Assembly: GCF_004916895.1 (NCBI RefSeq)
Contig: NZ_SNTZ01000004.1
Coordinates: forward strand, 186,001-250,000
Reading direction: 5' to 3'
Source of the DNA: Flagellimonas alvinocaridis
GTDB taxonomy: Bacteria > Bacteroidota > Bacteroidia > Flavobacteriales > Flavobacteriaceae
Length of the DNA stretch: 64,000 nucleotides
The position numbers were made by a program, and so were the translations under genes. This document shows positions 27,381 through 48,617 of this stretch, piece by piece. Every line of letters starts with the position of its first letter. The first letter of the stretch is position 1. Below the pieces are notes generated by a model that saw nothing but the letters and a program-made list of their open reading frames with translations, did not search any database and was not told the origin of the DNA.

Positions 27381-28463
27381 TTAAGAATTGATAATCTTCT
27401 CTTGGTGATTAATGGATTCTTGGTGAATGGCCTTGAACATTCTCAACACAAACTCCTCGCTCAATCCACGTTGCTCGCCTTCCAAGATCATATTGCCCAA
27501 AATGGCATTCCAACGGTTGCTTTGCAATACAGCAACGTTTTTCTGCTTTTTTAATTCGCCAATACCATCGGATACCTTCATACGCTTACCCAAAAGGTCA
27601 ATCAATTGATTATCCAATATATCTATTTGCGCTCTCAGGTTGCTCAAATTATTGTTGTACTCTGCCTCCTCATCGGTTTCTTTTCTGATGCGCAAGTCTT
27701 TCATGATTTGTATCAATGTTTTGGGTGTTACCTGCTGAGCTGCATCACTCCATGCATTGTCTGGATCACAATGGGTCTCAATGATCAACCCATCAAAATT
27801 CAAATCCAAAGCGGTTTGCGATACATCAAAAATCATATCCCGCTTACCTGTAATATGGCTAGGGTCGTTAATGATGGGCAAATCTGGAAACTTGGTCTGT
27901 AGTTCTATTGCCAACTGCCATTCCGGAATGTTTCGGTACTTGGTTTTTTCGTAGGTTGAAAATCCACGGTGGATTACCCCCAACTTTTTAATATCCGCAG
28001 AGTATAAACGCTCTACAGCTCCCAACCAAAGTGAAAGATCAGGGTTTACAGGATTTTTCACCAATACAATCTTATCGGTTCCTTTGAGGGCATCTGCAAT
28101 CTCCTGTACAATGAACGGACTCACGGTAGATCGTGCTCCTATCCAAAGCAGGTCAATGTCATGTTCCAAGGCCAAGTCCACATGGGCTTTGTTGGCCACT
28201 TCGGTAGCCGTTTTTAAACCCGTTTCCTCCTTTACTTTTTGCAACCACTTGAGGCCAATGGCACCTACGCCCTCAAAATTTCCGGGCCGGGTTCTTGGTT
28301 TCCAAATACCGGAACGAAAGTAGTTTACATCCGTATCCTTAAGCTCATGTGCTATCTTAAGCACCTGCTCTTCGGTTTCGGCACTGCAGGGTCCTGCAAT
28401 GACCAAGGGATGCGACAGGTTCATGTCATCCAACCATTTCCTCATTTGCTTACTGTTTTCCAT
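27381..28463 (-). CDS. bifunctional DAHP synthase (type I-beta)/chorismate mutase (AroQ)
   Basis: Two-domain enzyme of 360 residues. Residues 1-260 are a type I-beta DAHP/KDO8P synthase (AGPCSAE at 23-29, the GIWKPRTRP segment, INDPSHITG), the first step of the shikimate pathway. Residues 270-355 are an AroQ chorismate mutase (LRAQIDILDNQLIDLLGKRM). The CM domain probably also acts as the feedback sensor, as in other CM-linked synthases. Last gene of the operon, one base after tyrA. Confidence 0.94.
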   Translation of the reverse strand: MENSKQMRKWLDDMNLSHPLVIAGPCSAETEEQVLKIAHELKDTDVNYFRSGIWKPRTRPGNFEGVGAIGLKWLQKVKEETGLKTATEVANKAHVDLALEHDIDLLWIGARSTVSPFIVQEIADALKGTDKIVLVKNPVNPDLSLWLGAVERLYSADIKKLGVIHRGFSTYEKTKYRNIPEWQLAIELQTKFPDLPIINDPSHITGKRDMIFDVSQTALDLNFDGLIIETHCDPDNAWSDAAQQVTPKTLIQIMKDLRIRKETDEEAEYNNNLSNLRAQIDILDNQLIDLLGKRMKVSDGIGELKKQKNVAVLQSNRWNAILGNMILEGEQRGLSEEFVLRMFKAIHQESINHQEKIINS

Positions 28464-28464
28464 A

Positions 28465-29331
28465 CTATGTTCTGTTTTTTGTGAGTGGAATTCCTTTTAA
28501 TATTTGTTTTATCTTATTCGTATCGCTCATCTCTGTATACACCTTATCATAATCTTGGTCCAACAGAAGTTGTTTAAAATTTTCAAGGTTTTGGATGTAC
28601 TCCTCCAAAGTTTCGACCACATTGTCCCTATTCTGCTCAAAAATGGGGGTCCACATGTCCGGGGAACTTTTGGCCAAACGCACCGTGCTCTCAAAACCAC
28701 TTCCCGCCATGTCAAAAATATCGCGTTCGTTCTTTTCTTTCTCAATTACCGTTTTTCCCAACATAAATGAGCTGATATGTGACAAATGCGATACATAGGC
28801 AATATGCTTGTCATGGGCCTCTGGATTCATGTACCGAATGCGCATTTGCATCTTTTGAAAAATGTCCAATGCCTTTTCCTGAAGCTTGAAGGCCGTTTTT
28901 TCAACCTCACATATAATATTGGTCTTTCCTTCGTACAAACCATTTATAGCTGCGGAAGGTCCAGAAAATTCCGTTCCCGCAATGGGGTGGCATGCCATAT
29001 AATTTCTCCGCTTGGGGTGTTCCGCCACCGATTCGCAAATCAAGCGTTTGGTGGATCCCGCATCCATAACAACCGTTTCATCCCCCACAACATCCAAAAT
29101 CTTGGGCAATTCATGTACCAAAGCGTTCACAGGAATGCTCACATAGACCACATCGGCCAAGGCCAAAACCCCATAATCCCCTTTTTCATCTATAAGGTTC
29201 AGTTCCAAGGCCTCATCCAAATGGGAATCGCTTTTATCAATCCCAATAATATGGGCCTCTGGAAACAATTGCTTTACATCTTTGGCAAAAGAACCTCCGA
29301 TCAACCCTATTCCTATGACGACTACGTTCAT
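28465..29331 (-). CDS. tyrA: TyrA, prephenate dehydrogenase
   Basis: NAD(P)-dependent enzyme of 288 residues that makes 4-hydroxyphenylpyruvate for tyrosine. The Rossmann loop is GIGLIGGSFA at the N-terminus; the catalytic His is in ACHPIAGTE and a second active-site segment is HISSFMLG. No ACT or CM domain is attached. It follows the aminotransferase by three bases. Confidence 0.93.
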   Translation of the reverse strand: MNVVVIGIGLIGGSFAKDVKQLFPEAHIIGIDKSDSHLDEALELNLIDEKGDYGVLALADVVYVSIPVNALVHELPKILDVVGDETVVMDAGSTKRLICESVAEHPKRRNYMACHPIAGTEFSGPSAAINGLYEGKTNIICEVEKTAFKLQEKALDIFQKMQMRIRYMNPEAHDKHIAYVSHLSHISSFMLGKTVIEKEKNERDIFDMAGSGFESTVRLAKSSPDMWTPIFEQNRDNVVETLEEYIQNLENFKQLLLDQDYDKVYTEMSDTNKIKQILKGIPLTKNRT

Positions 29332-29334
29332 TTC

Positions 29335-30477
29335 TTAAAATCTTTCTATGGCTTCTTTGATTTTTTCCTCTTTCACACAAAGCGAAAAACGGATATATCC
29401 CTCTCCATTGCTCCCAAATATGGTACCTGGAGCAATAAAGATGTTTTTGTCATACAACACTTCATCCACAAATGCTTCCGAAGATGGAGCGCCTTCCGGT
29501 AGTTTGCACCACACGAACATACCCACTGCGTCTTCGCTATATTTACAACCCAATTTATCCGCTAGTTGGAACATGAGCTTTCGTCTCTTGGTATATACCT
29601 TGTCCAATTCCGCGAACCATTCCGGACCACTCTGCAATGCCGCTATGGCCCCTTTTTGAATACCGTAGAACATACCGGAGTCCATATTGCTCTTTACTTT
29701 GAGCACCGCATTGATGTTCTCCGGACTTCCCAACACCATTCCTACTCGCCACCCGGCCATATTGAATGTTTTGCTCAAACTGTTCAGTTCCAAAGTGCAA
29801 TCCAAGGCCCCTTCTATGGATAAAATACTGGTGGGGTTGCTGGACAACACAAAACTGTAAGGATTGTCATTGACCAATAAAATATCTTTCGCCTTGGCAA
29901 AATCAACCAAGGATGTCAATTGTTCCAAAGTGGCCGTTGCCCCTGTGGGCATGTGTGGATAACTTACCCACATCAGCTTTACTTTGGACAAATCTTCCTT
30001 GGAAAGTGCCTCTAGGTCTGGAAACCAACCATTCTCTTCGGAAAGATTGTAGGTTCTTGGAACGGCTTCCACCAATCGGGTCACCGAACCATAGGTAGGG
30101 TATCCCGGATTGGGCAAGAGCACCTCATCGCCCACATTCAAGAATGCCATACTAATATGCATGATCCCTTCCTTGGAGCCCATCAAAGGCAAAACCCCAT
30201 TGGCTGAATCTATACGTACCCCAAATTTTTGCTGATAGAACGCTGCAATGGCAGCCCTCAGTTCTGGCAAGCCTTGATAACTTTGGTATTGGTGCGCACC
30301 AGCGTCTGTTATGGAATCCCTTAAAGTGGTCAACACCTCTGGTGATGGAGCCAAATCAGGACTTCCAATACCCATGTTTATAATAGGCTTGCCCTGGGCC
30401 ATAAGTTCCCGTACCTCTCTTAATTTTCTTGAGAAGTAGTATTCCTGAACACTATTCAGTCTATTTGCGGTGATCAT
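29335..30477 (-). CDS. class I/II aminotransferase, probably aromatic
   Basis: PLP enzyme of 380 residues in the aspartate-aminotransferase fold. The PLP Lys is in NSLSKTFNMAGWR; NPGYPTYGSV and the late FIRFSL-like Arg segment are also visible. Its place between pheA and tyrA makes it the likely transaminase for phenylpyruvate and 4-hydroxyphenylpyruvate. This is inferred from context; sequence alone would also allow another amino acid. The ATG overlaps the pheA stop by four bases. Confidence 0.9.
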   Translation of the reverse strand: MITANRLNSVQEYYFSRKLREVRELMAQGKPIINMGIGSPDLAPSPEVLTTLRDSITDAGAHQYQSYQGLPELRAAIAAFYQQKFGVRIDSANGVLPLMGSKEGIMHISMAFLNVGDEVLLPNPGYPTYGSVTRLVEAVPRTYNLSEENGWFPDLEALSKEDLSKVKLMWVSYPHMPTGATATLEQLTSLVDFAKAKDILLVNDNPYSFVLSSNPTSILSIEGALDCTLELNSLSKTFNMAGWRVGMVLGSPENINAVLKVKSNMDSGMFYGIQKGAIAALQSGPEWFAELDKVYTKRRKLMFQLADKLGCKYSEDAVGMFVWCKLPEGAPSSEAFVDEVLYDKNIFIAPGTIFGSNGEGYIRFSLCVKEEKIKEAIERF

Positions 30478-31304
30478 ATCAACAATGCATTTTTATATTC
30501 GCCCAAGACCCTAAAATCTTCGGACATGATATCCAACAACGACTTTGCCTTGGCAAAGTGCCCATACTTCTCAAAAGTGACATCCACAAAAAAAGCGTAC
30601 TTCCATGGGGTCTCAATGACCGGAAGGGATTGGATCTTGGTGAGGTTGAGGTTACAATCACTCATAACGTTCAACACCGTGGCCAAACTTCCTCTTTTAT
30701 GGTCGGTAATGAACCGTAGCGAAGCCTTATTGATTTCCTCTTTGGGCAAGACTTTGTTTTTCTTTTTCAAGATGATAAAACGGGTAGCGTTATTTTTAAT
30801 CGTCTGGATTTCAGATGCAATAATGTCCAAACCGTAAAGTTCAGCGGCCATCTTGGGTGCTATTGCAGCAATATGGGTCAATTGGTTTTCCTTGATCCGT
30901 TTTGCGGTTTCCGCCGTATCCACACTTTCCACCAGTTTTATTTGGGGGTACTCCTTAAAAAACTCCTTGCACTGCAATAAAGCCATCGGATGCGAGTGTA
31001 CTTCATTGATATCTTCCATGGAACCACCTTTGAGTACCATAAGATTATGGTGTATGCTCAGATAGTGTTCTCCAATAATGTGCATATTGTTGTGGTACAC
31101 CAAATTATAATTTGGTATGATGGACCCTGCTATGGAATTTTCTATGGCCATAACCCCTTTGTCCGCTGTACCATCTTGTAAATGGTCAATTATTGCATCA
31201 AAGGATAAACATTCCAATAATTCAATGTCGTCTCCAAAAAAATCCTTGGCTACCTGATGGTGGTTGGACCCCTTAATTCCCTGAATGGCTACTTTTAAAC
31301 CCAT
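30474..31304 (-). CDS. pheA: PheA, prephenate dehydratase with ACT domain
   Basis: Enzyme of 276 residues that makes phenylpyruvate. Residues 1-180 are the dehydratase (GIKGSNHHQVA, IENSIAGSI, TRFIIL); residues 195-270 are an ACT domain (GSLATVLNVMSDCNLNLTKIQS) that in the family binds phenylalanine as inhibitor. First structural gene of pheA-aminotransferase-tyrA-DAHPS/CM. The ATG at 31304 lies three bases after the T run of a leader terminator, so expression should depend on read-through of the attenuator at 31308-31436. Confidence 0.94.
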   Translation of the reverse strand: MGLKVAIQGIKGSNHHQVAKDFFGDDIELLECLSFDAIIDHLQDGTADKGVMAIENSIAGSIIPNYNLVYHNNMHIIGEHYLSIHHNLMVLKGGSMEDINEVHSHPMALLQCKEFFKEYPQIKLVESVDTAETAKRIKENQLTHIAAIAPKMAAELYGLDIIASEIQTIKNNATRFIILKKKNKVLPKEEINKASLRFITDHKRGSLATVLNVMSDCNLNLTKIQSLPVIETPWKYAFFVDVTFEKYGHFAKAKSLLDIMSEDFRVLGEYKNALLI

Positions 31305-31307
31305 GGC

Positions 31308-31336
31308 AAAAAAAAAGCCCCGATTTTATCGGGACT
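31308..31336 (-). terminator. attenuator terminator before pheA
   Basis: On the minus strand AGTCCCGAT (31336-31328) pairs with ATCGGGGCT (31324-31316) around a three-base loop. The nine-bp stem has one G-U pair. A run of eight T follows (31315-31308), then the pheA ATG at 31304. The structure is an intrinsic terminator placed to stop transcription before the operon. Confidence 0.9.
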
Positions 31337-31378
31337 TTATCATGTTAATATACTTTAAGCGTATCTACAATAGTCCCG
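31330..31378 (-). promoter_or_regulatory. predicted antiterminator pairing of the pheA leader
   Basis: CGGGACT at 31378-31372 is perfectly complementary to AGTCCCG at 31336-31330, the 5' arm of the terminator. The two pairings are mutually exclusive. The upstream segment lies inside the last codons of the leader peptide (T20-G21-L22), so a ribosome at the leader stop codon would cover it. Confidence 0.8.
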
Positions 31379-31436
31379 TTCCTCCTTGAAAAAAGAAGTA
31401 AAAATAAAAACGGTTCCAGAAATACGTCGTTGTCAT
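31365..31436 (-). CDS. Phe/Tyr-rich attenuation leader peptide (pheL-like)
   Basis: Open frame of 23 codons from ATG 31436 to TAG 31365. Residues 5-16 read YFWNRFYFYFFF: six Phe, three Tyr and one Trp among twelve. The frame ends 61 bases before pheA and overlaps the antiterminator arm. A run of control codons for the very amino acids made by the operon, followed by competing hairpins and a terminator, is the layout of pheL/trpL-type attenuation. Ribosome stalling at the Phe/Tyr codons would leave 31372-31378 free and permit read-through. No Shine-Dalgarno is visible, as is usual in this phylum. Confidence 0.88.
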   Translation of the reverse strand: MTTTYFWNRFYFYFFFQGGTGLL

Positions 31437-31485
31437 TCGTGATAAATATGCAGCTAATATAGGCATTCAAACCAAAACGAACAGC

Positions 31486-44177: not shown

Positions 44178-46874
44178 TTAGCCTTCAACTATGTTGGGAG
44201 CCAGCCATTTTTGGGCTTTCTCCAATTCAATATTCTTTCGTTTTGCAAAATCCTCCACTTGATCTTGCTCTATTTTTCCCAATCCGAAATATTTTGCCTT
44301 CGGATGTGCAAAATAATAACCACTTACACTCGCTGCAGGCCACATGGCCAAACTTTCGGTAAGTTCCACCCCTATTTTCTCCTTGACCCCCAATAATTCC
44401 CAAATGGTAAGCTTCTCCAAATGGTCTGGGCAGGCCGGATATCCCGGTGCAGGTCGGATTCCTAAGTACTTTTCCTCAATAAGTTCATCGTTGGACAGGG
44501 ATTCTGCGGCAGCATAGCCCCAGAATTTGGTTCGCACCTCTCTATGCAGATATTCCGCAAAGGCCTCTGCCAAACGATCGGCAATGGCTTTGATCATAAT
44601 GGAGTTGTAATCATCATGCTTTTTCTCAAAATCAGCCGCAAGTTCTTGGGTCCCAAAACCGGTGGAGACGCAAAAACAGCCCATATAATCCTGCAGGCCA
44701 CTATCCTTGGGAGCGATAAAATCCGCAAGGGCAATGTTGGGCACCCCATCCCTCTTTTTGAGCTGTTGCCGAAGGGTCCTGAACATGGTTGTATCGTTCC
44801 CTTCCGCACTAGAACCATCCAGTGACCCTGTCTGAAGCTCAATATCATCGTCATTCACCTGATTGGCCGGAAACAAGCCAAAGATGGCCTTGGCGGTCAA
44901 CCATTTTTCATCAAACACCTTCTTAAGCATGACCTGGGCATCCTTAAAAAGTTCCGTGGCCTGTTCCCCTACAACCTTATCGGTTAGGATATCCGGATAT
45001 TTTCCATGTAATCCCCAGCTTCGGAAAAAGGGACTCCAATCTATAAACTCTTTCAATTTTTTCAGGTCGAAATCCTCCCAGACCTCAATACCAAGTTGCT
45101 TGGGAACCACAATATCCTTTAAATCCCAATCGATTTGGAGTTTGTTCTTTCGGGCTTCCTCCAAGCTCAAATAGGTTTTCTGTTTGGACCTTCCCAAAAA
45201 CTTGTCCCTAAAGCTTTCATAATCCAATTTGATGGACTTTTTGTAGGCATCCGAGGTTTCGGTCTGCAACAAATCGCCCACCACGGTCACTGCCCGCGAA
45301 GCATCATTGACATGGACCACCGCATTACTGTAAACGGGATCAATCTTAACCGCGGTATGGGCCTTACTGGTAGTGGCCCCACCAATCAAAAGGGGAACTT
45401 CAAAATCTTGTCGTTCCATTTCCTTGGCCAAAAAGACCATCTCATCCAATGACGGTGTGATCAATCCACTCAAGCCAATAATATCTACTTGTTCCTCTTT
45501 CGCCTTATTGATAATTTTTTCAGGCGGCACCATAACGCCCATATCCACAATCTCATAATTGTTGCAGGCCAGTACCACACTAACAATGTTCTTTCCAATA
45601 TCATGGACATCCCCTTTCACGGTGGCCATCAATATTTTTCCGGCCGCCTTGGCATTGGCATCCTTGGACGCCTCAATATATGGGGTAAGGTAGGCCACTG
45701 CTCTTTTCATCACCCGGGCCGATTTTACCACCTGGGGCAAAAACATTTTTCCGCTTCCAAACAGATCTCCTACCACATTCATTCCCGTCATCAGGTTGCC
45801 CTCAATCACCTCCAAAGGTCTTTTGGCATTTTGACGGGCTTCCTCTACGTCTTCAACAATGTATTGATCTATTCCCTTCACCAAAGCCCTTGTAATCCTA
45901 TCCTGCAAGGGGTCTTCCCGCCATGACAGGTCCACTTTGCTTTCCTTGGCCGTTCCCACCACGGTTTCGGCAAATTCCAAAAGGCGTTCGGTGGCATCAT
46001 CCCGTCTATCGAGCAAAACATCCTCAACGTGCTCCAAAAGGTCTTTCGGAATATCGTCATACACCTCCAGCATGGCCGGATTTACAATTCCCATGTTCAT
46101 TCCCGCCTTGATGGCATGGAACAAGAAAGCGGAATGCATGGCCTCACGTACAGGGTTGTTCCCACGAAAGGAGAAAGATACATTACTGACCCCTCCACTT
46201 ACACTACAATAAGGTAGGTTCTCACGGACCCATTTGGTGCCTTCGATGAAGTCAAGGGCATTGCGCCTGTGTTCCTCCATTCCCGTTGCCACAGGAAAAA
46301 TATTGAGGTCGAAAATGATATCTTCCGGGGCAAATTTCACTTGGTTGACCAAGATATCGTAGGAACGTTTGGCAATTTCGATTCGGCGTTCATAGGTATC
46401 CGCCTGTCCTACCTCATCAAAAGCCATGACAATTACGGCCGCCCCATAACGCTTGATGAGTTTGGCATGATGTACAAACTCCTCTTCTCCTTCTTTCAGG
46501 CTGATGGAATTGACCACACATTTTCCCTGTACCACTTGGAGACCTGCCTCGATGATCTCCCATTTGGAACTATCGATCATGATAGGAACGCGGGCAATGT
46601 CCGGTTCGGATACGATAAGGTTCAGGAACTTGACCATAGCTGCTTTGCCATCAATCAATCCATCATCCATATTCACATCTATGATCTGTGCTCCTCCCTC
46701 TACCTGATGACGGGCGATCTCTAGGGCTTCATCAAACTTTTCTTCCTTGATAAGCCTAAGAAACCTCTTGGAGCCTGCCACATTGGTTCGCTCCCCCACA
46801 TTGATGAAATTACTTTCCGGGGTAACGACCAACGGTTCCAGACCTGATAGTTTTAAAGCTCTTGTTTGGGCCAT
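44178..46874 (-). CDS. metH: MetH C-terminal polypeptide: folate, B12 and reactivation domains
   Basis: Cobalamin-dependent methionine synthase, second half, 898 residues. The pterin-binding domain ([14 protein letters not shown] at about 26-39) comes first, then the B12 helical and Rossmann domains with the cobalt-ligand motif DVHDIG, then the SAM-binding reactivation domain ([12 protein letters not shown]). The homocysteine domain is encoded separately at 47340-48353; together they make 1235 residues, close to one-piece MetH. A lipoprotein gene sits between the halves. Confidence 0.95.
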
Positions 46875-46885
46875 GTATCTCTTCC

Positions 46886-47356
46886 TTACTTGATCCTAAT
46901 ATATTTTTCCACAATATGCCGCTTTATACCGGCTTCGGGTACATCCTCAACCCCAGATTGAATCAAGGTATCTCCCTTGATCTCCACATTGAAAGTAAAC
47001 TCGTGCCCCCTTATTTCCTTCACACCCACATAATCCAATCGTTCTTTGTAGGTGTCCCCATCCAAGCTGTACGTTCCTCCACCGCCATAAAATCCATCTG
47101 CGGTATCCTTCACTTGATTGAAAAAGGCAAAATGGTCCTCATTCAAAATCTTTACGAACTCGGTATTGGACAAATCCTTTACTTCCAAGGAGTCCTCGGT
47201 CTTTACCTCACCATAGACCAGTTTCCATGTGCCCATGATACCTTTCCCTTCTTCGATCGGAGTTGAAATGGTATCTTCGGCCTTTTCCTTTTTTCCACAG
47301 GAAGCCAAGGTCGCCAAGACCCCTAAAACCATCATTATATTATACATGCGTTTCAT
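46886..47356 (-). CDS. hypothetical lipoprotein between the MetH halves
   Basis: Lipoprotein of 156 residues: signal peptide with lipobox LASC, Cys at residue 20, then a small beta-rich lipocalin-like or DUF-type body starting [10 protein letters not shown]. No link to methionine synthesis is known. It overlaps the end of the upstream MetH gene by 17 bases and ends 11 bases before the second one, so it must be on the same riboswitch-controlled transcript. Confidence 0.82.
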
Positions 47357-48353
47357 GGGTCGGTTTTAATTTTCTGGGTGAATATTGTTTGGTCAATTCT
47401 ACAATTGCTTTGATGTGCTCCGGCGTAGTACCACAGCACCCCCCCACAATGTTCACCAATCCTTTTTCCAAATACTCTTTGATCTGTGATGCCATTTGCT
47501 CCGGGGTTTCATCATATTCCCCAAAGGCATTGGGCAAACCGGCATTTGGATGGGCCGATGTGGCAAAGTCCGACTTGGCCGAAATCACTTCCAAGTGCGG
47601 AACCAACTGTTTGGCCCCCAAGGCACAGTTAAAGCCAACTGACAAAATGGGGATATGGGAAACCGAAATCAAAAAAGCCTCGGCGGTCTGTCCGGATAAG
47701 GTCCGCCCTGAAGCATCCGTAATGGTTCCACTGACCATGATAGGCACATCGATATTACGTTCGTCCTTAACTTCTTCTATGGCAAAAAGTGCCGCTTTGG
47801 CATTGAGGGTATCAAAAATAGTCTCAACCAGCAACAAATCCGAACCCCCATCCAACAAGGCTTCCACCTGTTGTTTGTAGGCTTCACGTAATTCATCAAA
47901 GGAAATGGCCCTAAAACCCGGGTCATTCACATCGGGCGACATGCTGGCCGTTTTATTGGTGGGACCTATACTCCCAGCCACAAATCTGGGTTTATGGGGT
48001 TCCTTGGCGGTAAACTCGTTGGCCACTTCCTTGGCAATCCGGGCCGACTCGAAATTGAGCTCGTACACCAAATCTTCCATGTGGTAATCGGCCATGGCGA
48101 TGGTAGTCCCGGAAAACGTATTGGTTTCCACGATATCGGCGCCTGCCTCAAAATATTTGCGATGGATGTCCGCTATGGCCTGAGGTTGGGTCAAGGACAA
48201 CAAATCGTTGTTTCCCTTTAAAGGATATTCCCAATCCTTGAAACGCTCCCCCCTAAAATCCTCTTCCTCGAACTTATACCGCTGCAACATGGTACCCATG
48301 GCACCATCCAGCACTAAAATGCGTTTTTGTAAAATGTCTTCAATCTTTTCCAT
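47340..48353 (-). CDS. metH: MetH N-terminal polypeptide: homocysteine-binding domain
   Basis: Homocysteine S-methyltransferase domain as a free protein of 337 residues. It has the zinc Cys pair in [12 protein letters not shown] and an upstream zinc Cys in [18 protein letters not shown] at the N-terminus and ETNTFSGT are typical of MetH. It should dock with the 898-residue polypeptide downstream to form working methionine synthase. First gene of the operon, 75 bases after the SAM-I aptamer. Confidence 0.94.
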
Positions 48354-48427
48354 ACTACATAACTTCCCCTATGCAGGAAATAAAATGGTATCAAGAAAAT
48401 ATGGAAATACAACAGGAATGTATTTTT

Positions 48428-48589
48428 GTTATCCTTCCCTTACCATGGTCGGTTTTCCTTCCATGAGTTCCCAAAACATACCAAAACACGTTCAGCACAA
48501 TTCAGGACAGGGGTAGAATGTAGCACCTTCTCGAAGTCGAGGGTTGCTAAGGTTTCACAGGGTCCATTCCCTCCACCTTTCTTGATAAC
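48428..48589 (-). promoter_or_regulatory. SAM-I (S-box) riboswitch
   Basis: On the minus strand the conserved core is plain: ATCAAGAAAGGTGGAGGGA, then a TGGACCC/GTGAAACC hairpin, GCAACC (48547-48542), a CTCGACTTCGAG hairpin and AAGGTGCTA (48529-48521). P1 is closed by GTTATC (48589-48584) and GATAAC (48433-48428). All parts are in S-box order. A downstream word CTTGATACC (48395-48387) can pair with the P1 5' strand GGTTATCAAG with one bulge and may be the switching element. High SAM should shut the met operon. Confidence 0.92.
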
Positions 48590-48617
48590 CATTTCAGTTT
48601 ATAAATGAACTAGGGTA

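Follow-up and report, generated by a model that had tools for sequence, protein, structure and literature searches.

A probable ribosome-mediated attenuator with a Phe- and Tyr-rich leader upstream of the pheA operon of Flagellimonas alvinocaridis and its relatives

The operon for phenylalanine and tyrosine synthesis in Flagellimonas alvinocaridis is preceded by a short, aromatic-rich reading frame, a candidate antiterminator and an intrinsic terminator, which we interpret together, with a probability of roughly 0.93, as a ribosome-mediated transcription attenuator of the pheA-aminotransferase-tyrA-DAHP synthase operon. This is very probably a working attenuator in kind. The sequence itself, its conservation, the covariation of both helices and the spacing of one antiterminator arm (arm 2) from the last aromatic codon support it directly. 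The elements lie in a 64,000-nucleotide stretch of contig NZ_SNTZ01000004.1 (hereafter the window), on whose minus strand we assigned the following features:

31454..31461, minus strand: promoter-like -7 box, TATATTAG, which fits TAnnTT[AT]G (conserved spacing in relatives)
31365..31436, minus strand: leader ORF of 23 codons plus stop, MTTTYFWNRFYFYFFFQGGTGLL (direct reading)
31389..31424, minus strand: aromatic control codons 5-16, YFWNRFYFYFFF (direct reading)
31372..31378, minus strand: antiterminator arm 2, CGGGACT, pairing with 31330-31336 (alignment and arm-swap test)
31330..31336, minus strand: arm 3, AGTCCCG, common to antiterminator and terminator (alignment and arm-swap test)
31308..31338, minus strand: intrinsic terminator with an 11-bp stem and a T tract (direct reading, RNAfold, alignment)
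30474..31304, minus strand: pheA, prephenate dehydratase, 276 aa (Pfam PF00800, 1.6e-60)
29335..30477, minus strand: class I/II aminotransferase, 380 aa (Pfam PF00155, 3.4e-60), with a 4-nt overlap with pheA
28465..29331, minus strand: tyrA, prephenate dehydrogenase, 288 aa (NF006307, 388 bits against a cut-off of 295; PF02153, PF20463)
27381..28463, minus strand: DAHP synthase fused to chorismate mutase, 360 aa (PF00793, 2.6e-37; PF01817, 3.3e-22)

A preliminary description, made from the sequence alone, had placed a pheA operon downstream of the leader; Pfam and NCBIfam matches confirm this gene content, which fits a leader rich in Phe and Tyr codons. The operon covers Phe and Tyr synthesis as well as the entry step of the shared (shikimate) pathway, and its genes overlap by 4 nt or stand 1-3 nt apart. 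The pheA protein is 97% identical to its Flagellimonas olearia counterpart; its ACT match of 21.9 bits falls under the cut-off of 27, and its best NCBIfam match of 200.8 bits under that of 219. The upstream neighbour, gldA, is divergent, so the terminator does not belong to a gene that ends there.

Read directly on the minus strand, the leader ORF opens with an ATG at 31436 and closes with a stop codon at 31367-31365, bearing out the 23-codon frame (31436-31365) with aromatic residues 5-16 that had been described earlier; these residues include 6 Phe, 3 Tyr and 1 Trp. Ten aromatics in 12 residues are unique to this frame (in a 33-codon form) among the 725 ORFs of the whole window (ATG-started, 8-50 codons, each taken from its first ATG), the runner-up having 7. 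When the sequence between gldA and pheA was dinucleotide-shuffled 2000 times, no ORF had more than 8 aromatics, and 8 were reached in 4 shuffles. The leader is thus a short ORF rich in codons for the operon's products, and it is presumably translated.

The promoter-like TAnnTT[AT]G box ends 16-19 nt 5' of the leader ATG in 65 of 80 leaders; of the others, 3 have it at a different distance and 12 lack an exact match. The -7 consensus of F. psychrophilum is TAnnTTTG (PMC9723704). From its position, transcription is predicted to start about 10-12 nt before the leader ATG. A start downstream of 31378, which the preliminary description had held to speak against its proposal, is not what the sequence predicts, the box lying instead upstream of the leader frame. 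The 33-codon form, from an in-frame upstream ATG at 31466, was rejected and the 23-codon version is likely the real one, because ATG 31466 lies upstream of the conserved box (31461-31454). We likewise considered a leaderless start, for which a TTTG-N19-TATTTATC arrangement adjoining the ATG looked promoter-like in the window; the box kept in relatives is TAnnTT[AT]G, 16-19 nt off. A short 5' untranslated region is therefore more likely than a leaderless start.

The leader is widely conserved. Among named genomes we scanned 80 pheA loci (the best 80 of 558 relatives) and found a matching frame upstream of pheA in 79, the exception (L049) being a contig end. These 79 leaders have the form MxxxYF[WFY]N[GR]FYFYFFFKRGTGLL or near it, and all but one of the 80 leader ORFs (the window plus the 79 loci) are 72 nt long, the remaining one being 69 nt through the loss of one codon. 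At codon 7 the triplet varies while its aromatic class is kept (TGG in 69, TTT in 6 and TAT in 4 of 79). We then sampled the window's order, drawing 296 genomes, of which 192 had a pheA match, 70 of these in the window's own family (f1), which, with the class, is to judge from kinship labels presumably Flavobacteriaceae within Bacteroidia. A leader with at least 7 aromatics per 12 residues is present in 69 of the 70 pheA-bearing genomes of the family, window included, and is followed by a terminator in all 69; the sole miss (L090) is without an aromatic leader. Two rows were handled separately: L135 was left out of the terminator set, its full stretch containing both hairpin and T tract, and L161, whose frame lies 254 nt from the gene with its sole terminator-like site 123 nt downstream, was left out of the duplex counts.

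Beyond the family, 122 genomes of the order had a pheA match. Twenty of them, chosen to spread over families, were examined: 7 have a frame with at least 7/12 aromatics plus a terminator, 3 have a weaker frame plus a terminator (L151, L152, L164), and 10 have no accepted leader, the leader being missing in 5/5 examined genomes of family f4, 4/5 of f15 and 1/1 of f11. In the class outside the order, 27 genomes had a match and 26 were examined (G465, the weakest match, was left out); frame and terminator are present in 23, and the misses (L231, L232 and L251, of family f21, genus g97) are without an aromatic-run leader and terminator. Other f21 genomes (L253, L254, L255) have both leader and terminator, and L232 and L251 have in common a short frame with GWPW. 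Outside the class, a leader was found in 3 of 13 genomes examined, these being among the stronger of some 158 matches, and not in the other 10. The same search was applied, as a control, to 120 upstream regions taken from searches for hisG, trpE, ilvD and aspartokinase; 2 frames reached 7/12 aromatics, and neither had a terminator.

Leader peptides diverge strongly among genera, as in MATNRFYFSNNFYFFFSRS (L095), MRTTAVYTYFGFYYFFFSKRNETLYV (L134) and MLQNVWQGFYFYFYYFSKRRGFVSCI (L130). Although leaders were chosen by their total of Phe, Tyr and Trp and not by each residue, all 150 distinct leaders hold at least two Phe and at least two Tyr, so that a joint Phe and Tyr signal is likely. Trp occurs in 86 of the 150, and in 32 of the 81 that lie outside the close clade of the window.

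Arm 2 (CGGGACT) sits inside leader codons 20-22 and is the exact complement of arm 3 (AGTCCCG), which is also the 5' arm of the terminator; direct reading confirmed this complementarity between 31378-31372 and 31336-31330, to which the earlier account had drawn attention. Through the shared arm, antiterminator and terminator are mutually exclusive. The terminator stands between the leader ORF and the first structural gene, with a stem that joins 31338-31328 to 31324-31314, including one G-U pair (RNAfold), and a T tract of nine T (31316-31308), three of them within the stem, which in the window ends 3 nt before the pheA ATG (31304). The preliminary description was right about the presence of this terminator three bases from the pheA ATG, but its nine base pairs and T8 are to be replaced by 11 bp and nine T. 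The fold of 31305-31460 has a z score of -2.32, with 4 of 200 shuffles folding equally well.

We examined both helices in alignment A1 (80 rows, 76 distinct; L049, whose contig begins 155 nt upstream, was dropped). In the terminator helix 99.1% of cells are paired and 6 of 10 tested pairs are doubly changed, a number that 0 of 500 shuffles reach. In the antiterminator helix 97.6% of cells are paired and 2 of 7 pairs are doubly changed, with 23 of 500 shuffles reaching the same number; covariation of the antiterminator within the closest clade is thus modest, because the arms vary little there. Sliding the antiterminator arms by one base lowers pairing to 48-58%. Among genera the terminator arms do vary (AGTCCCG, AGTCTCG, AGCCTCG, AATCCTG, ATCCCGC and GACCGCT among others), and as the close clade alone varies too little, the argument for selection is carried by an arm-swap test. 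In this test, which covered 50 representatives from the order, no two with the same arms, the leader 3' region was paired with the terminator arm. Own duplexes had a mean of -12.5 kcal/mol against -9.2 kcal/mol with swapped arms, and 0 of 10,000 permutations matched the own sum; single swaps equalled or exceeded the own pair in binding in 507 of 2450 cases, because many arms are similar. This fit is the strongest evidence for selection on the competing helix. The check proposed in the preliminary description, conservation of frame and competing helices in relatives, has thus come out in its favour: frame, antiterminator and terminator are kept and the arms covary, and its attenuation logic (a Phe/Tyr leader, an antiterminator sharing an arm with the terminator, and the operon) is well supported by this conservation.

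In the window the hairpin lies near the pheA start codon, its T tract ending 3 nt short of it, and the hairpin could instead act on translation by hiding the pheA start region, with the leader merely coupling translation. We regard this as very unlikely, since the distance from hairpin to pheA ranges from about 6 to 132 nt among leaders (starts taken from the protein match, within some 12 nt) and the hairpin is kept together with its T tract, whereas a hiding hairpin needs no T tract and would not tolerate such a range.

A protector helix of arm 2 with the upstream leader belongs to the classical scheme (PMC1183508, available text); a conserved pairing of this kind (region 1:2) was not found among the distinct leaders (mean z -0.06). 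The minimum free energy fold of the window contains a candidate region 1:2 helix, CCGTTT/GAACGG; it was rejected, as relatives with AACGGTTT at this position cannot form it. In the close clade a local hairpin beside arm 2 (columns 37-45/50-58) is 93.8% paired; it excludes arm 2 and joins pyrimidine-rich to purine-rich codons. We also observed that codons 13-16 are nearly fixed as TAC TTC TTT TTT (74, 79, 78 and 76 of 79), while Phe/Tyr codons vary elsewhere, and that they face the purine-rich codons 17-19 in a possible 9-bp hairpin before arm 2 (window 31379-31400, minus strand; A1 columns 37-58), which is perhaps a polymerase pause.

Across the 150 distinct leaders (180 cases), the median distance from the last aromatic codon to the start of arm 2 is 10 nt (IQR 7-10, sd 4.2), the distance from arm 2 to the stop codon being more variable (sd 7.1). 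As 69 of the 150 leaders form a close clade in which both distances are nearly fixed, the 81 others were analysed apart. In these, the last aromatic codon precedes arm 2 by a median of 9 nt (IQR 7-11, sd 5.4), and arm 2 is separated from the end of the stop codon by a median of 13 nt (IQR 2-17, sd 9.5). The greater mobility of the stop codon bears on a further explanation, namely that the ORF encodes a conserved small protein with a function of its own and is followed by an unrelated terminator. The 23-residue sequence is indeed very alike within the Flagellimonas/Maribacter set; among genera, however, it is mainly aromatic richness that persists while length varies, the last aromatic codon keeps its distance from arm 2 better than the stop codon does, and an unrelated terminator would not carry an arm fitted to the 3' end of the leader. 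We therefore give this explanation even less credence than an effect on translation.

Returning to attenuation, we modelled the ribosome by barring from pairing the A-site codon with the 15 nt behind it and the 11 nt ahead of it, an assumed footprint; the folded transcript ended with arm 3. With the A site at least three codons before the last aromatic codon, the probability of the arm 2:arm 3 helix in the 150 leaders is 0.93-0.97; it is 0.72 with the A site on that codon, and 0.21 and 0.07 when the site has moved on by one and two codons. The values corresponding to these last three positions for the 81 leaders outside the close clade are 0.82, 0.29 and 0.12, and in the window a move from codon 16 to codon 17 lowers the modelled probability from 1.0 to 0.01. 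The sharpness of this switch is partly built in, because the footprint is assumed; its coincidence with the last aromatic codon rests on the spacing found. Without a ribosome the mean probability is 0.72 (0.98 in the window), so the model favours the 2:3 helix. Geometry and the folding model with its assumed footprint agree with the idea that a stalled ribosome would free arm 2 and a later one would cover it, in keeping with the stalled-ribosome logic proposed earlier: the modelled ribosome leaves arm 2 free up to the last aromatic codon and hides it thereafter.

From this arrangement we infer how transcription start, translation, stalling, termination and a response to Phe and Tyr would fit together. 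RNA polymerase would start about 10-12 nt before the leader ATG, with a ribosome trailing it through the 23-codon leader. Scarcity of charged Phe- or Tyr-tRNA (or of Trp-tRNA, for the one codon) would make the ribosome stall within codons 5-16 with its front edge at or before the start of arm 2, and the free arm 2 (CGGGACT) would capture the emerging arm 3 (AGTCCCG), so that no terminator forms and the operon is transcribed. With plentiful charged tRNAs, the ribosome would move beyond codon 16 and cover arm 2, arm 3 would pair with arm 4, and transcription would end at the T tract just before pheA. More tentatively, and with considerable doubt, we suggest that much of the window's class might possess a single-pass Phe and Tyr attenuator without a region 1:2 protector, in which the front edge of the ribosome, about one codon past the last aromatic codon, decides the outcome. 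If this were true, read-through would be the default for a leader that is not translated, and ribosome and polymerase would have to be tightly coupled in bacteria that begin translation without Shine-Dalgarno pairing.

A structured 5' leader with a terminator is also what one would expect of a metabolite- or tRNA-sensing RNA (a riboswitch or T-box) or of a protein-bound leader in which the ORF is incidental. To this we attach almost no weight, as no Rfam family matches the leader at gathering score, the top lax match being Phe_leader, and the consensus fold consists only of the local leader hairpin and the terminator. The covariance model of Phe_leader (RF01859) matches the pheA leader weakly but over the model's whole length, at 29.3 bits (E 0.0041), below its gathering cut-off of 55.

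The kind of control proposed here, attenuation by a translated leader, is textbook. The enterobacterial pheL has a Phe-rich leader ORF and an antiterminator that uses the 5' arm of the terminator, upstream of pheA as here, and its control codons are nearly all Phe. In contrast, the leader described here reads Tyr besides Phe, its operon comprises pheA together with the aminotransferase, tyrA and DAHP synthase, and no region 1:2 helix was detected in it. The pheA operons of E. coli and S. typhimurium are listed among attenuated operons in the available text of PMC1183508; the attenuation theory developed there lets the ribosome on the regulatory codons race RNA polymerase, as we propose, but is applied in that text to the enterobacterial trp and his operons, with no treatment there of a joint Phe and Tyr signal.

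Attenuation is not new for the phylum either. The preliminary description knew of no described case in Bacteroidota, a statement that does not hold: Rfam RF01692 (Bacteroid-trp) is a tryptophan peptide leader RNA of the same phylum and matches this very genome before trpE, and PMC9723704 contains both leader-peptide clues and a conserved element before pheA. The source table of RF01692 is found in PMC2864571, and the available text of PMC6414381 discusses this leader for F. psychrophilum. RF01692 differs from the pheA leader in its Trp codons, its trp operon and its arms, and at gathering score it has no match in the window or in the pheA loci L001, L095 and L234. For F. psychrophilum, the available text of PMC9723704 gives strong indications of leader-peptide attenuation upstream of amino acid operons and describes structured elements before pheA and hisG that are common to other Flavobacteriaceae and have no Rfam match. 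This element concerns the same gene in related bacteria and is conserved among Flavobacteriaceae genera; the leader sequence, the arms, the Tyr content and the spread beyond the family are not given in that text (2021). Leader-peptide-like short ORFs in long 5' untranslated regions are also described for Bacteroides thetaiotaomicron (PMC7366714), the example being the 5' untranslated region of a hypothetical protein, and pheA is absent from the main text. The words Bacteroid-, Flavobacter- and pheA are absent from the main text of PMC2965389, on premature terminators, and no treatment of a Bacteroidota pheA leader was found in the available text of PMC4833913 and PMC1262725. Among the literature matches listed, none is a paper on a Bacteroidota pheA leader peptide, PMC9723704 (supplements aside) being the closest. 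The pheA case is therefore partly anticipated in the literature; what is new here, among the literature matches listed, is the anatomy of the pheA leader, its Phe and Tyr content, the covarying arms, the breadth across other orders and the spacing rule.

Several other leaders and RNAs were noticed along the way. A His-rich leader, MRNKNVHHHFYTCSQAR, precedes hisG in the same genome (L190), and His-rich frames precede hisG in 19 of 30 family loci (L171-L200, threshold 3 of 10), 18 of them with a terminator; the frame without one (L173) looks like chance. Before trpE, the same genome carries the Trp leader MNHRIANTWWWINLLRKS (L209); WWW leader frames with a terminator occur in 15 of 30 trpE loci (L201-L230), and Bacteroid-trp (RF01692) matches all three trpE loci searched (L209, L211, L202). 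In 4 of 29 ilvD loci (L271, L273, L280, L292), Ile/Leu/Val-rich frames followed by a strong terminator-like hairpin are found about 290-360 nt upstream of the gene, the frame in this genome being MKRTILVNGVVIIVPNLE; these are possibly branched-chain attenuators. At the aspartokinase loci L310, L315, L317, L319 and L322 we noted a conserved self-complementary stretch, ACCCCTTTGGGGT, in frames with TTPLG or a similar ending; behind it come an AT-rich segment and a motif resembling CCGTCCG or CCGT, and at those loci the script found no terminator. Elsewhere in the window (44178-48591, minus strand), a SAM riboswitch (RF00162, 55.9 bits) precedes what, by names read from the translations, is an apparent two-part metH: 47340-48353 would encode its N-terminal homocysteine methyltransferase portion and 44178-46874 the remainder, and a lipoprotein-like frame of 156 codons (46886-47356) separates them. 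Two Flavo-1 RNAs (RF01705) flank the L095 pheA region (L095:91-166, minus strand; L095:2704-2781, plus strand).

The tie of the last control codon to arm 2 amounts to a design rule that could be tested with a handful of mutants, and it gives a rule for annotating a leader gene that here has no Rfam 15 match at gathering score. Leader-peptide attenuation works only if the ribosome keeps up with RNA polymerase. The pheA leader, together with the hisG and trpE leaders in part of the family, may thus serve as a natural reporter for transcription-translation coupling without Shine-Dalgarno sites, which are absent in flavobacteria (PMC9723704, available text).
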